A DNA stretch of 64,000 nucleotides from Erysipelotrichaceae bacterium (GTDB taxonomy: Bacteria > Bacillota_I > Bacilli_A > Erysipelotrichales > Coprobacillaceae), in contig JAJQFG010000104.1 in NCBI GenBank assembly GCA_021201315.1, positions 60,693 to 124,692 on the forward strand, read 5' to 3'. The stretch's first letter is position 1. Each line of letters opens with the position of its first letter. Below are positions 3,823 through 54,076 of this stretch, piece after piece. The translations under genes were made by a program, and so were the position numbers. The notes under the pieces were generated by a model. That model searched no databases. It was not told where the DNA came from and saw only the letters and a list, made by a program, of their open reading frames with translations.

Positions 3823-5589
3823 TCACGATGATGTGTCATGTAAAGCATTGTAGAGTTCTTCAGCAACTTTATTAGGAAGATTTTCTTGTAAATCTTCTAG
3901 TGTGGCTTCCTTCATTTTTTTGACACTTTTATATTTATTAAGTAATTGTTTTTTTCGTTTTGGTCCAATACCATCTATATCATCTAAAATAGATGAAAAC
4001 AAAGATTTAGAACGGACATTTTTATGAAAACTGATGGCATAACGATGAACTTCATCTTGCATCCTTGTTAGTAAAAAAAACAATTCACTTTTAGGATTAA
4101 TCTTAATTTGTTGTCCATTTCGATCTAATAACATAGCTGTAGAATGCTTATCATCTTTAGACAAACCACATACAGTAATATTCATATTAAGACTATCAAT
4201 CACTTCAACAGCAGCATGTATTTGTCCCAATCCACCATCCACTATAACCATATCTGGTGGGGTTAACCCCTCACTTAAAACACGAAAATAACGACGATAA
4301 ATGACTTCACGCATGCTACCATAATCATCAGGTCCTTCAACTGTCTTAATTTTAAATTTACGATAATCTTTCTTTGAAGGCAAACCATCTTTAAAACATA
4401 CCATTCCAGCTACTGCATAAGCACCTTGAATATTAGAATTATCAAATAGTTCAATAGTATGAGGTGTATTGATATGTAATAATTCACCTAATTGTTGCAT
4501 AGCTCCAATGGTAGCAGCTTCATTTTTTTGTTTTAATTCAAATTGTTTTTCTAAAGATTCTTTAGCATTTTCTATGGCCATATTGACAAGCTGATATTTA
4601 TTACCTTTTTGAGGTTGTAATATTTTACAATCTAATATTTCTTTAAGCAATTCAATATCTAAATCTTTAGGTAATAATAATTCTTTAGGTAACGTATTAT
4701 TTTGATAAAAAGTAACTATAAATTGTTGAATATCATCTTGTACATTATCACTCACTGGAAGTAAATCTAAATTACGGGACAGTAATTTACCATTACGCAT
4801 AAAAAATAATTGAATACTTAAATAACCTCGATCAATATAATAACCTAAAATATCACGATCAATATGATCATTAAATTGCACATGTTGTTTAGCAGTAACA
4901 TATTGAATATGTTCAATGAGATCACGGTATTCTTTCGCTTCTTCATATCTCATTTGTTCACTAGCTGTAAGCATTTTTTCAGTTAATTCATCAACTTTTT
5001 CCTTAATATCACCATTCATTAGTTTACTAATAGATTTTTTTATTTTAACATATTCTTGTTGATCAACTTCATTAATACAAGGTGCTAAGCATTGTCCAAG
5101 TGAATAATATAGACAAGGTTTAGCAGGGATATGATTGCATTTTCTTAATGGATATAAACGATTCAATAATTTGAATGTGTCTCTAGCTGCACTTGCATCT
5201 GGAAACGGGCCAAAGTGCTTAGCTTTTTTTTCTTTAGCATGTCTTACTATTTTTAAAGTTGGATGTTCTTCATTAGTCATTTGAATATATGGATAATAAG
5301 TATTATCCATAAACATGATGTTATATTGAGGTTGATAATCTTTAATCAAATTGATTTCTAATAATAAAGCTTCTTTTTCACTATCCGTCACAATATATTC
5401 AAAATCCTCGATTTCACTAACTAATTTTGTTGTTTTATAATTATGAACACCAACAAAATAAGAATTTACACGATTTTTTAGTTTCTTAGCTTTACCTACA
5501 TAGATAATGGTTCCCTCTTTATTTTTCATCAAATAACATCCAGGACTTAATGGTAACAGTGTTAATTTATCCTTAATATTTTGATTCAT
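3823..5589 (-). CDS. uvrC: UvrABC excinuclease subunit C
   Basis: UvrC makes the two incisions around DNA lesions after UvrA/UvrB recognition. The 588-aa protein has the full domain set. An N-terminal GIY-YIG nuclease spans about 12-90 (CYLMKN, IIYVGKAKKLKNRV). A UVR/UvrB-binding segment lies near 203-235 (RYEEAKEYRDLI). The RNase H-like 5' nuclease spans about 380-500 (ELFDNSNIQGA, DYGSMREVIYRR). A C-terminal helix-hairpin-helix lies near 535-575 (DDIDGIGPKRKKQLL). The start codon shares one base with the mutS2 stop (TAATG), so the two repair genes are translationally coupled. Confidence 0.97.
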   Translation of the reverse strand: MNQNIKDKLTLLPLSPGCYLMKNKEGTIIYVGKAKKLKNRVNSYFVGVHNYKTTKLVSEIEDFEYIVTDSEKEALLLEINLIKDYQPQYNIMFMDNTYYPYIQMTNEEHPTLKIVRHAKEKKAKHFGPFPDASAARDTFKLLNRLYPLRKCNHIPAKPCLYYSLGQCLAPCINEVDQQEYVKIKKSISKLMNGDIKEKVDELTEKMLTASEQMRYEEAKEYRDLIEHIQYVTAKQHVQFNDHIDRDILGYYIDRGYLSIQLFFMRNGKLLSRNLDLLPVSDNVQDDIQQFIVTFYQNNTLPKELLLPKDLDIELLKEILDCKILQPQKGNKYQLVNMAIENAKESLEKQFELKQKNEAATIGAMQQLGELLHINTPHTIELFDNSNIQGAYAVAGMVCFKDGLPSKKDYRKFKIKTVEGPDDYGSMREVIYRRYFRVLSEGLTPPDMVIVDGGLGQIHAAVEVIDSLNMNITVCGLSKDDKHSTAMLLDRNGQQIKINPKSELFFLLTRMQDEVHRYAISFHKNVRSKSLFSSILDDIDGIGPKRKKQLLNKYKSVKKMKEATLEDLQENLPNKVAEELYNALHDTSS

Positions 5590-7898
5590 TATTCAAAATA
5601 CACCAGGGTCGCCCCTAGCCCTCCCTCATTAGGACCACCATCACGATAAGATACTACATTTTTGTTTTTTTCTAAAATTTGTCTTACTCCTTTTCTTAAA
5701 GCACCTGTTCCCATACCATGAACAATACGCACATGAGGATAACCTAAAACCAATGCATCATCCAAAAACTTATCTACCATATTCATAGCCTCTTCATAAC
5801 GTTTTCCAATAATATTTAATTCATAATTTCCTGTCTTTTTAACTGTTGTTTTTCTAACAGTTGCTTTCTTTTCTTTTTTAACTCTTGTTTTAGAATGCAT
5901 AAAAATCACTTCATCTTGATGCAACTTGACTTTTAATCCTCCAACTGATACAACAAGCATTTGATTCTTTAATATTTCAACAATATCACCTTCTCGATTC
6001 ATACGAATCACTTTAACATGATCTCCTATAGACAAAGAATGATCTTGATGTACCAATTGTTGCTTATCCATAAAACGAATATCATTCAAATCATGTTTTG
6101 CTTGATTAATTTCATGTTGTTTCATCTGTGATTGTTTCATTGTTTCAATAATAATATCAATATTATCTTTTGCTTCGTCTACAAGTTGATTGGCTTCATC
6201 TTTAGCTTTTTGTATGATTTGATCTTTTTGATGATTGATTTGCTTCATTTTTGATTCATATTGATTTTGGAGTTTTTGATTATCTATAAGAAGTTGTTGA
6301 AGTTCTTGTTGTTTTAAATTGAGTTGATCTTGTTGCAATGTTAGCTGTTCTAACATTTTTTCATAATCATTCTGACTTTCTTCTTTAATTTGATAAGCAT
6401 GTTCAATAATATCTTTATCCATACCCAACATACTAGCGATTTCTAAAGCATATGAAGATCCTGCTTTATCCAATGTTAAGTGATATGTTGGTTTCATTTG
6501 TTCTAAATCAAATGAAACAGATGCCATTCCTATAGACTCATGCGTAGAGGCAAATGTTTTAAGTTTACCAAAATGGGTTGAAGCTAAAACATAACAATTC
6601 TTTTCTAAAAACTTTGATAGAATAGCTTCTGCTAAACATTCTCCTTCCTGAGGATCCGTTCCTGATCCGATTTCATCAATAAGAACCAAACTATTTTTTG
6701 AAGCATGATGTAATATATCAATGATTTTATGCATATGAGATGAAAAAGTAGATAGGGATTGTTCAATCGATTGTTCGTCTCCTAAATCAACATAAATATT
6801 ATCAAAGAAAGGTACTATAGCCTCACTACAAGGAACAACCATACCTGATAAAGCCATAAAAGACAACAAACCAGTTGTTTTTAAAGTCACTGTTTTACCA
6901 CCTGTATTACTTCCTGTAATCAATAACATACGATAATCTTTTAAAATAATATTATTTGCAACTACTTTTTTCTTATCAATAAAAGGATGTCTAGCTTGTC
7001 TTAAAGACAATATTTTACCATCTTCATCAATTGTAGCTTTACAACAATCCCATATAACACCATATTGACCTTTCGCAAAAATAAAATCTAATTCCTGTAA
7101 TATATCTAAATTATAATGAAAATGAATATAATGTTTTTTAACCAATTGTGACAATTGATATAAAATACGTTCAACCTCTTCTTTTTCCTCTTGCATTAGA
7201 ATTGCCAATTGATTATTCATATTTACAATCGCTGTAGGTTCTATATATAAAGTTTGACCAGTACCACTTTGACCATGAATCAAACCTTGTACTTCATTTT
7301 TATAATTGGCTTTTACTGGTAAAACCAAGCGATCATTTCTAGTTGTAACATTATCAATAGAAAGATAATCCTTAGAATCTTTTACCATAGAATCCATTTT
7401 ATTTCTAATGTTCACTTGCATAGATTGAATCTGCTTTCGCAAACGATAAAGTTCAGGGGATGCATGATCACTCATATTCCCTTCAGGGGTAATACATCTT
7501 TGTATTTCATTAAGTAAATGTATTTGCCCTACTAAACCATCAACCAATTCACTTATCAATGGTGTCTCTATATCTGAAGCATTCATATAATTTTTAACAT
7601 TTTCAATACATTCTAAATGGGCTGCAATCAATAATAATTCATCACCATATAATGTTCCATCATGTTTAGCACGTTCGATAAGCTTAGAAATATCATATAA
7701 TCCACCTAATGGTAAACGATCCTGTAATGAAATTAAATGCATAGCTTCATCCACTTTATTCAATGCAATATTCAAATCATCAAAATCATCAATAAAGTTT
7801 AACTTATCTACTTCACTCTTACCTAAACTTGATGCACAATAGGATTTTATTTGATTTTTTAAACGATCTATTTCTAAAGTTTCAAAAATTGTTTTCAT
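5589..7898 (-). CDS. mutS2: Endonuclease MutS2
   Basis: MutS2 is a MutS-family ATPase implicated in suppressing recombination and in rescuing collided ribosomes. It has the core clamp helices, Walker A GSNTGGKT near residue 330, Walker B LVLIDEIGSGTDP, a long coiled coil (about 500-620), and a C-terminal Smr domain (about 695-769) with HGMGTGALR. The LDLRG-type motif at the start of Smr reads LNIIG here, so the Asp and Arg linked to nuclease activity are missing. I start at the ATG at 7898 behind GGAG. The ATG at 7913 lies inside cvpA and its reading frame contains this Shine-Dalgarno sequence. Confidence 0.95.
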   Translation of the reverse strand: MKTIFETLEIDRLKNQIKSYCASSLGKSEVDKLNFIDDFDDLNIALNKVDEAMHLISLQDRLPLGGLYDISKLIERAKHDGTLYGDELLLIAAHLECIENVKNYMNASDIETPLISELVDGLVGQIHLLNEIQRCITPEGNMSDHASPELYRLRKQIQSMQVNIRNKMDSMVKDSKDYLSIDNVTTRNDRLVLPVKANYKNEVQGLIHGQSGTGQTLYIEPTAIVNMNNQLAILMQEEKEEVERILYQLSQLVKKHYIHFHYNLDILQELDFIFAKGQYGVIWDCCKATIDEDGKILSLRQARHPFIDKKKVVANNIILKDYRMLLITGSNTGGKTVTLKTTGLLSFMALSGMVVPCSEAIVPFFDNIYVDLGDEQSIEQSLSTFSSHMHKIIDILHHASKNSLVLIDEIGSGTDPQEGECLAEAILSKFLEKNCYVLASTHFGKLKTFASTHESIGMASVSFDLEQMKPTYHLTLDKAGSSYALEIASMLGMDKDIIEHAYQIKEESQNDYEKMLEQLTLQQDQLNLKQQELQQLLIDNQKLQNQYESKMKQINHQKDQIIQKAKDEANQLVDEAKDNIDIIIETMKQSQMKQHEINQAKHDLNDIRFMDKQQLVHQDHSLSIGDHVKVIRMNREGDIVEILKNQMLVVSVGGLKVKLHQDEVIFMHSKTRVKKEKKATVRKTTVKKTGNYELNIIGKRYEEAMNMVDKFLDDALVLGYPHVRIVHGMGTGALRKGVRQILEKNKNVVSYRDGGPNEGGLGATLVYFE

Positions 7899-7899
7899 T

Positions 7900-8646
7900 C
7901 TATTCTCCAACATGAATATTCTCTAATATACTTTTTACATCATCCTGAGAATATCCTAATTCATTTAAAATATTATTCAATTTATCATATTGACCTTCAC
8001 TTAACACAAGATCTTGGTCACTGTTCATAATTTCTGCATTGATAATTGTTACTAAATCATCATCACTTATAACATCAAAATCATAAGCACTCATCAACAT
8101 ATTTAAAGCAATTTGATCACTCATCTCTGCGCTATTTAAACATTCACCCATTTCTATAAAAGATTCACTCACTTCTGGCATAACATCTAATAAATAATCA
8201 ACTATTTTTGAATCAATCAAAAGATCATTATTAAACGGAATAATCACAAATAAGATAACAAGATAAATAAGAATCAAGCTTTCTGCAATACTCATAATTG
8301 CACCTAATAGATGATCAATAAAAGCTGTCAACGAGAAAAAATGAGTAATTCCTAGTAAAACAGGTTTCAACAACAAACCAAATAATTTCTTTATAATAGA
8401 TAAAACGATAAATAAAATAATAAATATCAATAACTGATTAATCACTTGACCAAACATCAGAGATAATGGATCTGTTGTATCATAATGGTAAATAGTATAT
8501 TGAGATGCTAATATACTACAAAAATGGCGTGATAAAAAGACTACTAAAATTGTACCAATAAGATCATATAAACGAATAATAAAACCTTTTATATAACCAT
8601 ATATAACCATACCTAAAATAAATATCAAACATATGATATCTAGCAA
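7900..8646 (-). CDS. CvpA family membrane protein (YshB-like), TTG start
   Basis: It has four predicted transmembrane helices in the first 150 residues, typical of the CvpA/colicin V production family, then an acidic, mostly helical tail of about 90 residues. In Bacillus the homologue yshB lies next to mutSB and rnhC, the same order as here. I choose TTG at 8646, six bases after GAGGAAGGTG. The ATG at 8670 would lie only 3 nt from the -10 box of a consensus promoter, upstream of the likely transcription start. The stop is 1 nt before the mutS2 ATG, so cvpA-mutS2-uvrC form one operon. Confidence 0.82.
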   Translation of the reverse strand: MLDIICLIFILGMVIYGYIKGFIIRLYDLIGTILVVFLSRHFCSILASQYTIYHYDTTDPLSLMFGQVINQLLIFIILFIVLSIIKKLFGLLLKPVLLGITHFFSLTAFIDHLLGAIMSIAESLILIYLVILFVIIPFNNDLLIDSKIVDYLLDVMPEVSESFIEMGECLNSAEMSDQIALNMLMSAYDFDVISDDDLVTIINAEIMNSDQDLVLSEGQYDKLNNILNELGYSQDDVKSILENIHVGE

Positions 8647-8672
8647 ATTTAACACCTTCCTCAGTGGCATTT

Positions 8673-8701
8673 ATTATAACATTATCATTTCGTACTGTCA
8701 A
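8673..8701 (-). promoter_or_regulatory. Consensus sigma-A promoter of cvpA-mutS2-uvrC
   Basis: A perfect TTGACA (8701-8696), 17-nt spacer and perfect TATAAT (8678-8673) on the minus strand. Predicted start is near 8666. Confidence 0.92.
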
Positions 8702-8816
8702 AAAAGGTTGTTATAAAAGAATAAAATCAATAATTATAATGAAAATATTAGGATAAATCAATTTTTTTCTATCAAAATATTAAAATTTATGTTAAAATTA
8801 GATTGAGGTGATTATC

Positions 8817-9728
8817 GTGGAACCTATATTACTAAAAGTTGGAAATAGTACATTGGAGAAAATGAAAAAGTTTTATGATGGTCAAATGGTTCCAATTGAT
8901 GACACTAACTTGATATTTAAAGCACACGCTATTGGTTGTGATATTGTTGCTAAAGAGGATATGACAGTTGAATTTACGGGAGAAAATGCTTTAAATGAGG
9001 CAAAGCACTGGTCTAAAAAATTAGCTAAAAGACTTGCAGAAGATCCAACTGATCATTATGATATATTTCCTTATCCTCATATTGGCTGTGCTGAAACGGG
9101 ATCGAGTGATTATTTGGGACCTATTTGTGTAGTAGCTTGTTTTGTTAACGAGGAGGATGTAGAATTATTAAAGAGTTTTGAAATTAATGACATTGATAAG
9201 TTATCCAATCAGGATATTATAAAGTATGCCAAAATTATTAAAGATAAACTGATTTATAGCTTATTAATATTAGATAATTCTCACTATAATAAGATGGTTC
9301 AAAGTGGTCTTAATCAGGCAAATATCAAATCAAAGCTTTACAATCAGGCAACGGTAAATGTTATACAAAAAGTAAAGCAAAATGTGAGAGTTAAAGTGAT
9401 CAATCAATTTGTTTCTCCAAAAACTTATTTCAACTATTTAAAGAATGAGGTTATTGTTGTCAAAGACATGTTGTTTGAAAAAAATGCACAAGCAAATTAT
9501 ATGGCTGTTTTAGCTGCTGAAATACTTTCTCGATATGCTTATTTGCAATATTTTGCCAACATGACAAAAAGTTTGAAAATGAACTTATGTCGTGGTACAA
9601 GTTCTAATGTAGATGTTGTAGTCGCCAAAATTGCATCCAAATATGGTGAAAGAATGTTAACAAAGGTCGCTAAATTAAATTTCACCAATACAAAACGTGT
9701 GAAAGCTTTATTAAGTGATCAACAGTAG
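8817..9728 (+). CDS. rnhC: RNase HIII homologue with substituted active site
   Basis: Length (303 aa), N-terminal TBP-like hybrid-binding domain (about 1-80) and C-terminal RNase H fold match RnhC, and the neighbour cvpA fits Bacillus synteny. However, conserved catalytic positions are changed. The usual GSDEVGTGD motif reads GCAETGSSD (Asp to Ala, near residue 92). IDQF reads INQF (near 196), and STKAE reads EKNAQ. Only the Glu of the DE pair and a late VD remain. Hydrolysis of RNA-DNA hybrids by the usual two-metal mechanism looks unlikely, so it may only bind hybrids or be decaying. An intact rnhB lies at 52.6 kb. Start is the GTG at 8817 behind GAGGTG; an upstream GTG overlaps that site. 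Confidence 0.85.
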   Translation: MEPILLKVGNSTLEKMKKFYDGQMVPIDDTNLIFKAHAIGCDIVAKEDMTVEFTGENALNEAKHWSKKLAKRLAEDPTDHYDIFPYPHIGCAETGSSDYLGPICVVACFVNEEDVELLKSFEINDIDKLSNQDIIKYAKIIKDKLIYSLLILDNSHYNKMVQSGLNQANIKSKLYNQATVNVIQKVKQNVRVKVINQFVSPKTYFNYLKNEVIVVKDMLFEKNAQANYMAVLAAEILSRYAYLQYFANMTKSLKMNLCRGTSSNVDVVVAKIASKYGERMLTKVAKLNFTNTKRVKALLSDQQ

Positions 9729-9755
9729 AAATGGCATTAGCCATTTCTTTTATAT
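9728..9755 (+). terminator. Terminator after rnhC
   Basis: The stem GAAATGGC/GCCATTTC (9728-9735, 9740-9747) with an ATTA loop is followed by TTTTATATTTT. It begins at the last base of the rnhC stop codon. Confidence 0.85.
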
Positions 9756-52580: not shown

Positions 52581-53222
52581 TTATAATTTGAATTCATCAC
52601 TATCAATAGTTAATTGAATATTTAAAGCATCTTTTACCGGTTGAAAAGAACGACGATGAATGGGTGTGACGCCATATTTTTGTAAAGCTTCTTTATGTTG
52701 TTTGGTTGGATAACCTTTATGTTTGGCAAAGCCATATTGAGGATATTGTTTATCATATTCTTGCATTATATGATCTCTTGTTACTTTAGCAAGTATACTT
52801 GCTGCACCTATCGAAATAGACTTACTGTCACCTTTGATAATTGCTTCATGTTCGATAATATTGCCCAATGGCATCGCATCACTTAATGCATAATCTGGTT
52901 TAATAGATATATGTTCAATAGCTTGAATCATGCCTAAACGTGATGCTTGATAAACATTTAAATTATCAACATCTTCTATACTTATAATTTCTATTTGATA
53001 AGACAAGGCATCTTGTTTAATAATTTCAAATAATTTTTCGCGCTTTTTTTCAGATAACTTTTTTGAATCATTGATTTCATTATTAACATAACCTTTAGGA
53101 AAAATAACGCCAGCAACTACCAAAGGACCAGCCATAGGTCCTCTACCTGCTTCATCTAAACCAATAATATATTTCTTACCTTTTTGATATGCAGCTTGTT
53201 CATATTCTAATCTTTCACACAT
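52581..53222 (-). CDS. rnhB: Ribonuclease HII
   Basis: This 213-aa enzyme removes ribonucleotides and RNA from DNA hybrids. Catalytic residues are intact: GLDEAGRGPMAGP (DE pair), NDSKKLSEKKR, the Asp in YALSDA and GAASILAKVTRD. This contrasts with the altered RNase HIII homologue at 8.8 kb. ATG at 53222 follows GGGAGG and overlaps the rbgA end by 16 nt, the same pairing as in Bacillus (ylqF-rnhB). Confidence 0.96.
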   Translation of the reverse strand: MCERLEYEQAAYQKGKKYIIGLDEAGRGPMAGPLVVAGVIFPKGYVNNEINDSKKLSEKKREKLFEIIKQDALSYQIEIISIEDVDNLNVYQASRLGMIQAIEHISIKPDYALSDAMPLGNIIEHEAIIKGDSKSISIGAASILAKVTRDHIMQEYDKQYPQYGFAKHKGYPTKQHKEALQKYGVTPIHRRSFQPVKDALNIQLTIDSDEFKL

Positions 53223-54076
53223 GTTGTATCCTCCCATGATATTGGACCTATTATACCACTATTAATTTCACTAAAAAACAATTGCATAACTCTATCATAG
53301 TCAGTTTCACCTTTAATAGGTTTTATTTTTCTAAGCTTTGCAATATGATCAAAAGCATGAATAAGCCAATCTTCATCACTAAAATCAATGGTTAATTGAT
53401 AACGTGCTTCTAATAACTTTGGATAATGTTGACTAAGATATTTTAAAGCATATATAAATAAATCATCTAATGGTAGGATATCTTGTTTAATCGAACCAAT
53501 AAGTGCAATATTTTTAGCAATTCTTTCATCATCAAATTTAGGCCATAAAACACCTGGTGTATCAAATAACTCAAAATCTTTAGCAACTCTAATAATTTGT
53601 TGTGATTTCGTGACTCCTGGTTTATTACCTGTAATAGTTGCTTTTCGGGATGCTAATTTATTAATAAAAGTTGACTTGCCAACATTAGGAATACCTAAAA
53701 CCATAGCACGAATTGGACGTGGTTTGATGCCACGAGCTTGTTCTTTAGCTTTTTTATCTTTTAAAATGATTTGACATTGATCAATAATTTTTTGATACTC
53801 TTTAAAATTTTTCAAATTAACACTCATCGCAAAATAATGATGTTCTTTATAATAATTAATCCATTGATTTGTTACATCAGCATCTGCCATATCTTTTTTA
53901 GTTAAAACAATGAGTCTAGGCTTTTGTTTAATGATATCATTAAGCATTGGATTTTTAGAAGAATACGGAGCTCTAGCATCAACTAACTCTATGACAATAT
54001 CGATGACTTTTAATTTATCACTAATCTCCCTTTTAGCTTTCGCCATATGTCCAGGGTACCATTGAATCTGTGCCAT
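53207..54076 (-). CDS. rbgA: Ribosome biogenesis GTPase RbgA (YlqF)
   Basis: This circularly permuted GTPase, needed for late 50S maturation, shows the motif order G4 (VLTKKDMAD) before G1 (GIPNVGKSTFINKLA) and G3 (FDTPGVLWPK). It begins QWYPGHMAKAKR, the family start. The 289 aa include the C-terminal ANTAR-like helices. It sits 11 nt after lepB. Confidence 0.95.
   Translation of the reverse strand: MAQIQWYPGHMAKAKREISDKLKVIDIVIELVDARAPYSSKNPMLNDIIKQKPRLIVLTKKDMADADVTNQWINYYKEHHYFAMSVNLKNFKEYQKIIDQCQIILKDKKAKEQARGIKPRPIRAMVLGIPNVGKSTFINKLASRKATITGNKPGVTKSQQIIRVAKDFELFDTPGVLWPKFDDERIAKNIALIGSIKQDILPLDDLFIYALKYLSQHYPKLLEARYQLTIDFSDEDWLIHAFDHIAKLRKIKPIKGETDYDRVMQLFFSEINSGIIGPISWEDTTCVKD

Follow-up and report, generated by a model that had tools for sequence, protein, structure and literature searches.

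What becomes of a ribonuclease when its cutting residues disappear while its reading frame stays open? The rnhC gene (RNase HIII) in a stretch of 64,000 nucleotides from an Erysipelotrichaceae bacterium, hereafter the window, raises this question. The gene, its signals, the two domains of its product and the neighbours that identify the locus are as follows.

8817 to 9728, plus strand: degenerate rnhC (pseudo-RNase HIII), 303 aa with a GTG start, from homology, fold and motif alignment
8805 to 8810, plus strand: ribosome-binding site GAGGTG, 6 nt upstream of the rnhC GTG, read directly
9727 to 9748, plus strand: terminator-like hairpin directly 3′ of the rnhC stop
8817 to 9032, plus strand: N-terminal TBP-like (DUF3378) domain, residues 1–72, with the contacts Y46/S48/Q54 replaced
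9072 to 9725, plus strand: RNase H-fold (pseudo-catalytic) domain, residues 86–303
7900 to 8670, minus strand: cvpA-like gene, divergent neighbour of rnhC, ancestral synteny
5589 to 7913, minus strand: mutS2, ancestral synteny partner of rnhC

The window protein matched Bst RNase HIII (3asm) with E=1e-32 over residues 7–298, so that both domains were covered. Its score against the TIGR00716 rnhC profile, 155.5 bits, fell slightly short of the curated cut-off of 161.2, and the N-terminal domain, which is present with its contact residues replaced, scored 22.5 bits against DUF3378, under the cut-off of 27. The AlphaFold2 model had a mean pLDDT of 91, and its top Foldseek matches in the PDB were two Bst RNase HIII structures, 3asm and 2d0a (E about 4e-28). 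The open reading frame is the RnhC orthologue at its customary locus, divergent from cvpA-mutS2, and from its flanking signals it looks monocistronic. Across the host family the locus is conserved, with uvrC-mutS2-cvpA divergent on one side and comEB-rluD-lspA convergent on the other, in line with the preliminary description's remark that the protein keeps RnhC neighbours. An ABC transporter insertion was restricted to the host genus among the genera checked. No new operon partner for rnhC was found at the loci compared, where the flanks were the ancestral genes. Across the family rnhC was about as well conserved in identity as uvrC and comEB, and considerably better than mutS2 and cvpA. The intergenic region also holds a perfect (12/12) sigma-70 consensus promoter with TGn (8673–8701, minus strand), directed into cvpA-mutS2.

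The active site departs from this ancestral picture in three motifs, all of which had been quoted in the preliminary description and were confirmed by alignment.

9084 to 9110, plus strand: degenerate motif I, GCAETGSSD, formerly GSDEVGTGD; D97 replaced by A, E98 kept, second Gly of GXG replaced by S
9399 to 9410, plus strand: degenerate motif INQF, formerly IDQF; Bst D202 replaced by N
9474 to 9491, plus strand: degenerate motif FEKNAQ, formerly FETKAE; Bst E232 replaced by Q, in the host species only

Bst D97/E98/D202/E232 align with A/E/N/Q in the window protein. The earlier count of two replaced metal-binding aspartates was right about D97A and D202N but too low, E232Q being the third change among the four catalytic carboxylates. 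E232Q is confined to the host species; E stands at this position in its two genus mates and in most close relatives. The GXG motif, whose second Gly is S in the window, has A, S, T, N, Q or G at that place in the family and G in 54 of 54 outside sequences. Because the matching D→N change in Thermotoga RNase H2, D107N (its equivalence to D202 taken from the order of the carboxylates), abolishes activity while substrate binding is retained (PMC3025331), cutting by RnhC has very probably been lost. Ta RNase H3 has been inactivated by D78N, at the D97 position (PMC4132731).

To see how far the degeneration extends, 43 genomes of the host family (Longibaculum, Massilimicrobiota, Sharpea, Kandleria, Beduini and the [Clostridium] spiroforme group) were sampled, and an RnhC orthologue was found in 41. 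The two others were G003, whose contig ends at this locus, and G011, which is 69% complete. True absence from G003 was rejected: the contig starts ~147 bp from the cvpA start, which marks an assembly gap. The gene was present in every family genome with an assembled locus and intact over at least 19 genera. DEDE was retained in none of the 41 family orthologues and in all 54 proteins sampled elsewhere in the order, a sample that deliberately included the lowest-scoring ones. The preliminary description had allowed that orthologues might keep the DE and D residues, the window copy then simply decaying. None of the 41 did so, and the orthologue alignment that it proposed revealed a degenerate active site in every one. 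The catalytic states in the family were AENE, AENQ, SENE, AENS, AEDD, AEED, AEND, AEEK, AEEQ, DENE, DETE, DENY and DDEY, and E98 was invariant save for one E→D.

In a tree of 69 rows, built with the four catalytic columns left out, all degenerate copies formed one clade (support 100/100), with short branches beyond a long stem of 1.08 changes per column. A single change from the intact to the degenerate state suffices on this tree. Since all degenerate copies belong to one clade, catalytic loss happened once, and a vertically inherited RNase HIII probably became a pseudoenzyme in the family ancestor. Within the clade D97 changed five times, D202 eight times and E232 eight times. This pattern bears on whether the protein is still a nuclease with an altered site, in which E98 is kept and other carboxylates are partly re-used for another substrate or metal. 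The near-invariance of E98 fits that idea, as do the retention of D97 in the DENE branch and of D202 in the AEDD genera; judged from these residues, such branches may have weak residual activity. However, no member has all four carboxylates, only one is left in the window protein, D97 and D202 changed repeatedly while the remainder stayed frozen, and the D→N change at the D202 position kills RNase H2 (PMC3025331). We regard an altered-site nuclease as very unlikely.

The dN/dS estimate that the preliminary description recommended gave 0.02–0.13 for the main rnhC gene in close pairs (Nei-Gojobori), with about 0.05 (0.04–0.06) in most, indicating strong purifying selection; mutS2 in the same genus had higher values (0.09–0.11). 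The intact 303-aa frame and these low ratios bear out its view that the reading frame is maintained. A gene heading for loss and still unbroken could be read from E232Q, found in the host species only, and from G004, where rnhC is frameshifted at an A-run (L024, G004:C1:2497750-2498654, a single-contig assembly), perhaps through a sequencing error, perhaps through recent breakage. The dN/dS of about 0.05 and the presence of an intact gene wherever the family locus was assembled speak against such decay, which was ruled out on these data as a negligible prospect. High expression was considered as the reason for slow evolution and found unsupported, rnhC having the lowest codon adaptation to ribosomal-protein usage among the 59 window open reading frames scored (with the window and a single ribosomal-protein locus as reference). 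Conserved loss of catalytic residues, a maintained fold and purifying selection, which together characterise a pseudoenzyme, were all found. As read from sequence, the protein descends from RNase HIII but is a pseudoenzyme and does not count as a working RNase HIII.

Two further observations concern the gene and its copies. In codons 16–30 of rnhC (window 8862–8906; same codons in L004–L014) synonymous differences were 0.14 versus 0.3–0.5 elsewhere, and dS of the N-terminal domain was about half that of the core; the few synonymous differences in these codons may reflect a hidden regulatory or overlapping signal. A second RnhC paralogue occurs in genus g9, of the [Clostridium] spiroforme group (L063, L064, L065, L066, L067, L050). 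It is shorter and more degenerate (YEDE, CDHE, DDHY), lacks the N-terminal domain, and at L063 and L050, the two loci examined, has a Crp/Fnr-type regulator and a YitT membrane protein as immediate neighbours.

Does the protein still hold RNA-DNA hybrids in the manner of RNase H3? Among 32 core columns conserved at ≥98% outside the family, only 12 remain at ≥90% inside. Lost or variable in the family core are D97, D202, E232, the second Gly of GXG, K132 of the DSK motif, D136, H180 and H295, the last corresponding to H263 in the phosphate pocket of Ta RNase H3 (PMC4132731). Mutation of the N-terminal domain contacts of RNase H3, for which the Bst equivalents are Y46, S48 and Q54, lowers affinity (PMC4132731), and all three positions are replaced or variable in the family. 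Of the RNase H3 hybrid contacts examined, only E98, G100 and D103, which contact 2′-OH groups (PMC4132731), remain. In the g9/g20/g12/g13 branch the N-terminal domain is wholly absent; in its place is a tail of ~30–50 residues that AlphaFold2 predicts to be disordered (pLDDT ~30), followed by a confident core. A short conserved motif, (M/I)N(I/V)I(N/D)MH, recurs in the disordered tails of g9 and g20 (L027–L032, L052–L060).

These losses weigh on the preliminary description's suggestion that the protein binds hybrids without cutting them. Catalytic loss, the more basic core described below and the D107N analogue agree with that suggestion, while the disappearance of most tested hybrid contacts and the absence of the N-terminal domain in one branch do not. 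In its strict form, a substrate trap would bind hybrids in the ordinary RNase H3 manner without cutting and would shield or mark R-loops or primers. The three preserved 2′-OH contacts, the basic core and the identity of N202 with the cleavage-dead, substrate-binding Thermotoga change are what one would expect of a trap. Nevertheless, the family has lost, or does not consistently keep, Y46, S48, Q54, the second Gly of GXG, K132 and H295, and one large branch has no N-terminal domain. Because of the lost contacts and this deletion, a simple hybrid trap is weakened, and we consider it rather unlikely.

Features were also gained. The mean net charge of the core was +6.8 in the family versus +0.6 outside, counting related genomes as independent, and +11 in the window protein. 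About 35 positions are conserved in the family and not outside, including H88, H156, G164, A168, K193 and S200 to D217 of an invariant SPKTYFNYLKNEVIVVKD block. At positions 212–213, K/P/E outside the family is V/I inside, a change from polar to hydrophobic.

9405 to 9467, plus strand: clade-specific conserved block QFVSPKTYFNYLKNEVIVVKD, residues 197–217, from the family alignment

Such a block might mediate contact with another protein, and RnhC might then, with no nucleic-acid role, scaffold or regulate a partner such as RNase HI, RNase HII or the replication machinery. The hydrophobic turn at 212–213 in the invariant block, the tolerated loss of the N-terminal domain and the joint presence of RnhC and RNase HI in near-complete family genomes would suit such a partner. 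On the other hand, nucleic acid is at least as compatible with the more basic core, and no conserved new neighbour suggests a partner; a purely protein-protein role is possible, though on the doubtful side. Taken together, the charge shift and the new block suggest that RnhC binds nucleic acid or acts as a scaffold without cleaving.

Other RNases H occur beside RnhC. The window itself contains a second RNase H gene.

52581 to 53237, minus strand: rnhB (RNase HII), apparently intact, residues judged by eye

The statement that RNase HII is intact at 52.6 kb was correct as far as inspection by eye goes. RNase HI with a hybrid-binding domain (HBD) was found in 41 of 43 family genomes versus 4 of 153 outside, and its DEDD residues and catalytic His were intact in 37 of 37 aligned sequences. 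An apparent absence from G021 in the Pfam search (PF00075) was a false negative, since a protein query matched at E=3.7e-53. In a survey of 353 genomes, RNase HI with an HBD and RNase HIII never occurred together (PMC1950709); the same paper gives the rnhB rnhC double mutant of B. subtilis as lethal. The host family has both, and its RNase HIII is always degenerate. The presence of HBD-type RNase HI in the same family, which the preliminary description had not noted, explains how RnhC could give up cutting, and from these gene contents RNase HI very probably took over hybrid cleavage. The link between the two carries no statistical weight because it is a single coincidence on the tree. At least two sister genomes (G087, G177) have an RNase HI-like gene together with intact RnhC; therefore, gain of RNase HI alone does not force loss of RnhC activity. 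One such locus outside the family (L172, G087:C1:739940-740566) encodes a 479-aa open reading frame with HBD and RNase H domains and a long C-terminal extension, in a genome that also has intact RnhC.

We favour, with moderate confidence, the explanation that RnhC is a neofunctionalised pseudo-RNase that arose after takeover by HBD-type RNase HI and that binds nucleic acid or acts as a scaffold without cleaving. The family protein would now serve a non-cutting role, cutting having apparently been ceded to a second enzyme. In this proposal HBD-type RNase HI would have assumed cleavage of RNA-DNA hybrids, which freed RnhC to be selected as a non-cleaving protein. Binding would occur through a putative basic surface of the RNase H fold and through the new SPKTYFNYLKNEVIVVKD block, and the likely targets would be nucleic acid or a partner in replication or RNA processing. 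Forks and R-loops are the sites of action of Bacillus RNase HIII, and RnhC could act at either; the Bacillus enzyme is enriched at replication forks (PMC11352351), and by analogy a replication-fork role is possible. The fullest version, in which the family gained HBD-type RNase HI, ceded hybrid cleavage and turned RNase HIII into a non-cleaving nucleic-acid binder, essential or nearly so, with a putative basic surface, is more tentative, and we think it somewhat less probable than its negation.

Kochiwa et al. took the non-coexistence of HBD-RNase HI and RNase HIII as a model of redundancy removing genes (PMC1950709). In the host family the gene for the redundant enzyme persisted, but very probably not as that of an active one: the catalytic site was taken apart, and the protein is strongly constrained. 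As a case confined to one clade, it makes the fate of a redundant enzyme directly testable and offers a probable naturally cleavage-dead RNase H for study. It also means that counts of rnhC from annotation probably overstate RNase HIII activity in common gut bacteria. If RnhC was rebuilt as a non-cleaving binder, it would be a natural cleavage-dead RNase H working alongside active RNases H, and a chromosomal counterpart of the tether domain of retroviruses.

In the literature on inactive RNase HIII, generally or in Erysipelotrichia, we found nothing on such a case. The family protein resembles RNase HIII (RnhC; Bst 2d0a/3asm, Ta 4py5; TIGR00716) in sequence orthology, two-domain fold and locus beside cvpA-mutS2. 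It differs in lacking DEDE and most tested hybrid contacts, in its basic core and new block, and in the deletion of the N-terminal domain in one branch. The inactive RNase HI of B. subtilis (Group A, Kochiwa et al. 2007; PMC1950709) is likewise a Firmicute RNase H orthologue reported inactive beside active other types, but there RNase HI is inactive and RNase HIII active, the reverse of the host family. Laboratory D→N mutants (Tm RNase H2 D107N, PMC3025331; Ta RNase H3 D78N, PMC4132731) carry the same change or a change at the same position and are cleavage-dead, whereas the host-family change is natural, family-wide and accompanied by many further changes of binding residues. In the tether (connection) domain of retroviral reverse transcriptase, the old RNase H degenerated and lost its catalytic role once a new one had been gained (PMC9040795). 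Both retroviral domains lie in one retroelement polyprotein and the tether derives from an RNase H1-type domain, whereas the host family has two separate chromosomal genes and its degenerate protein descends from RNase HIII.
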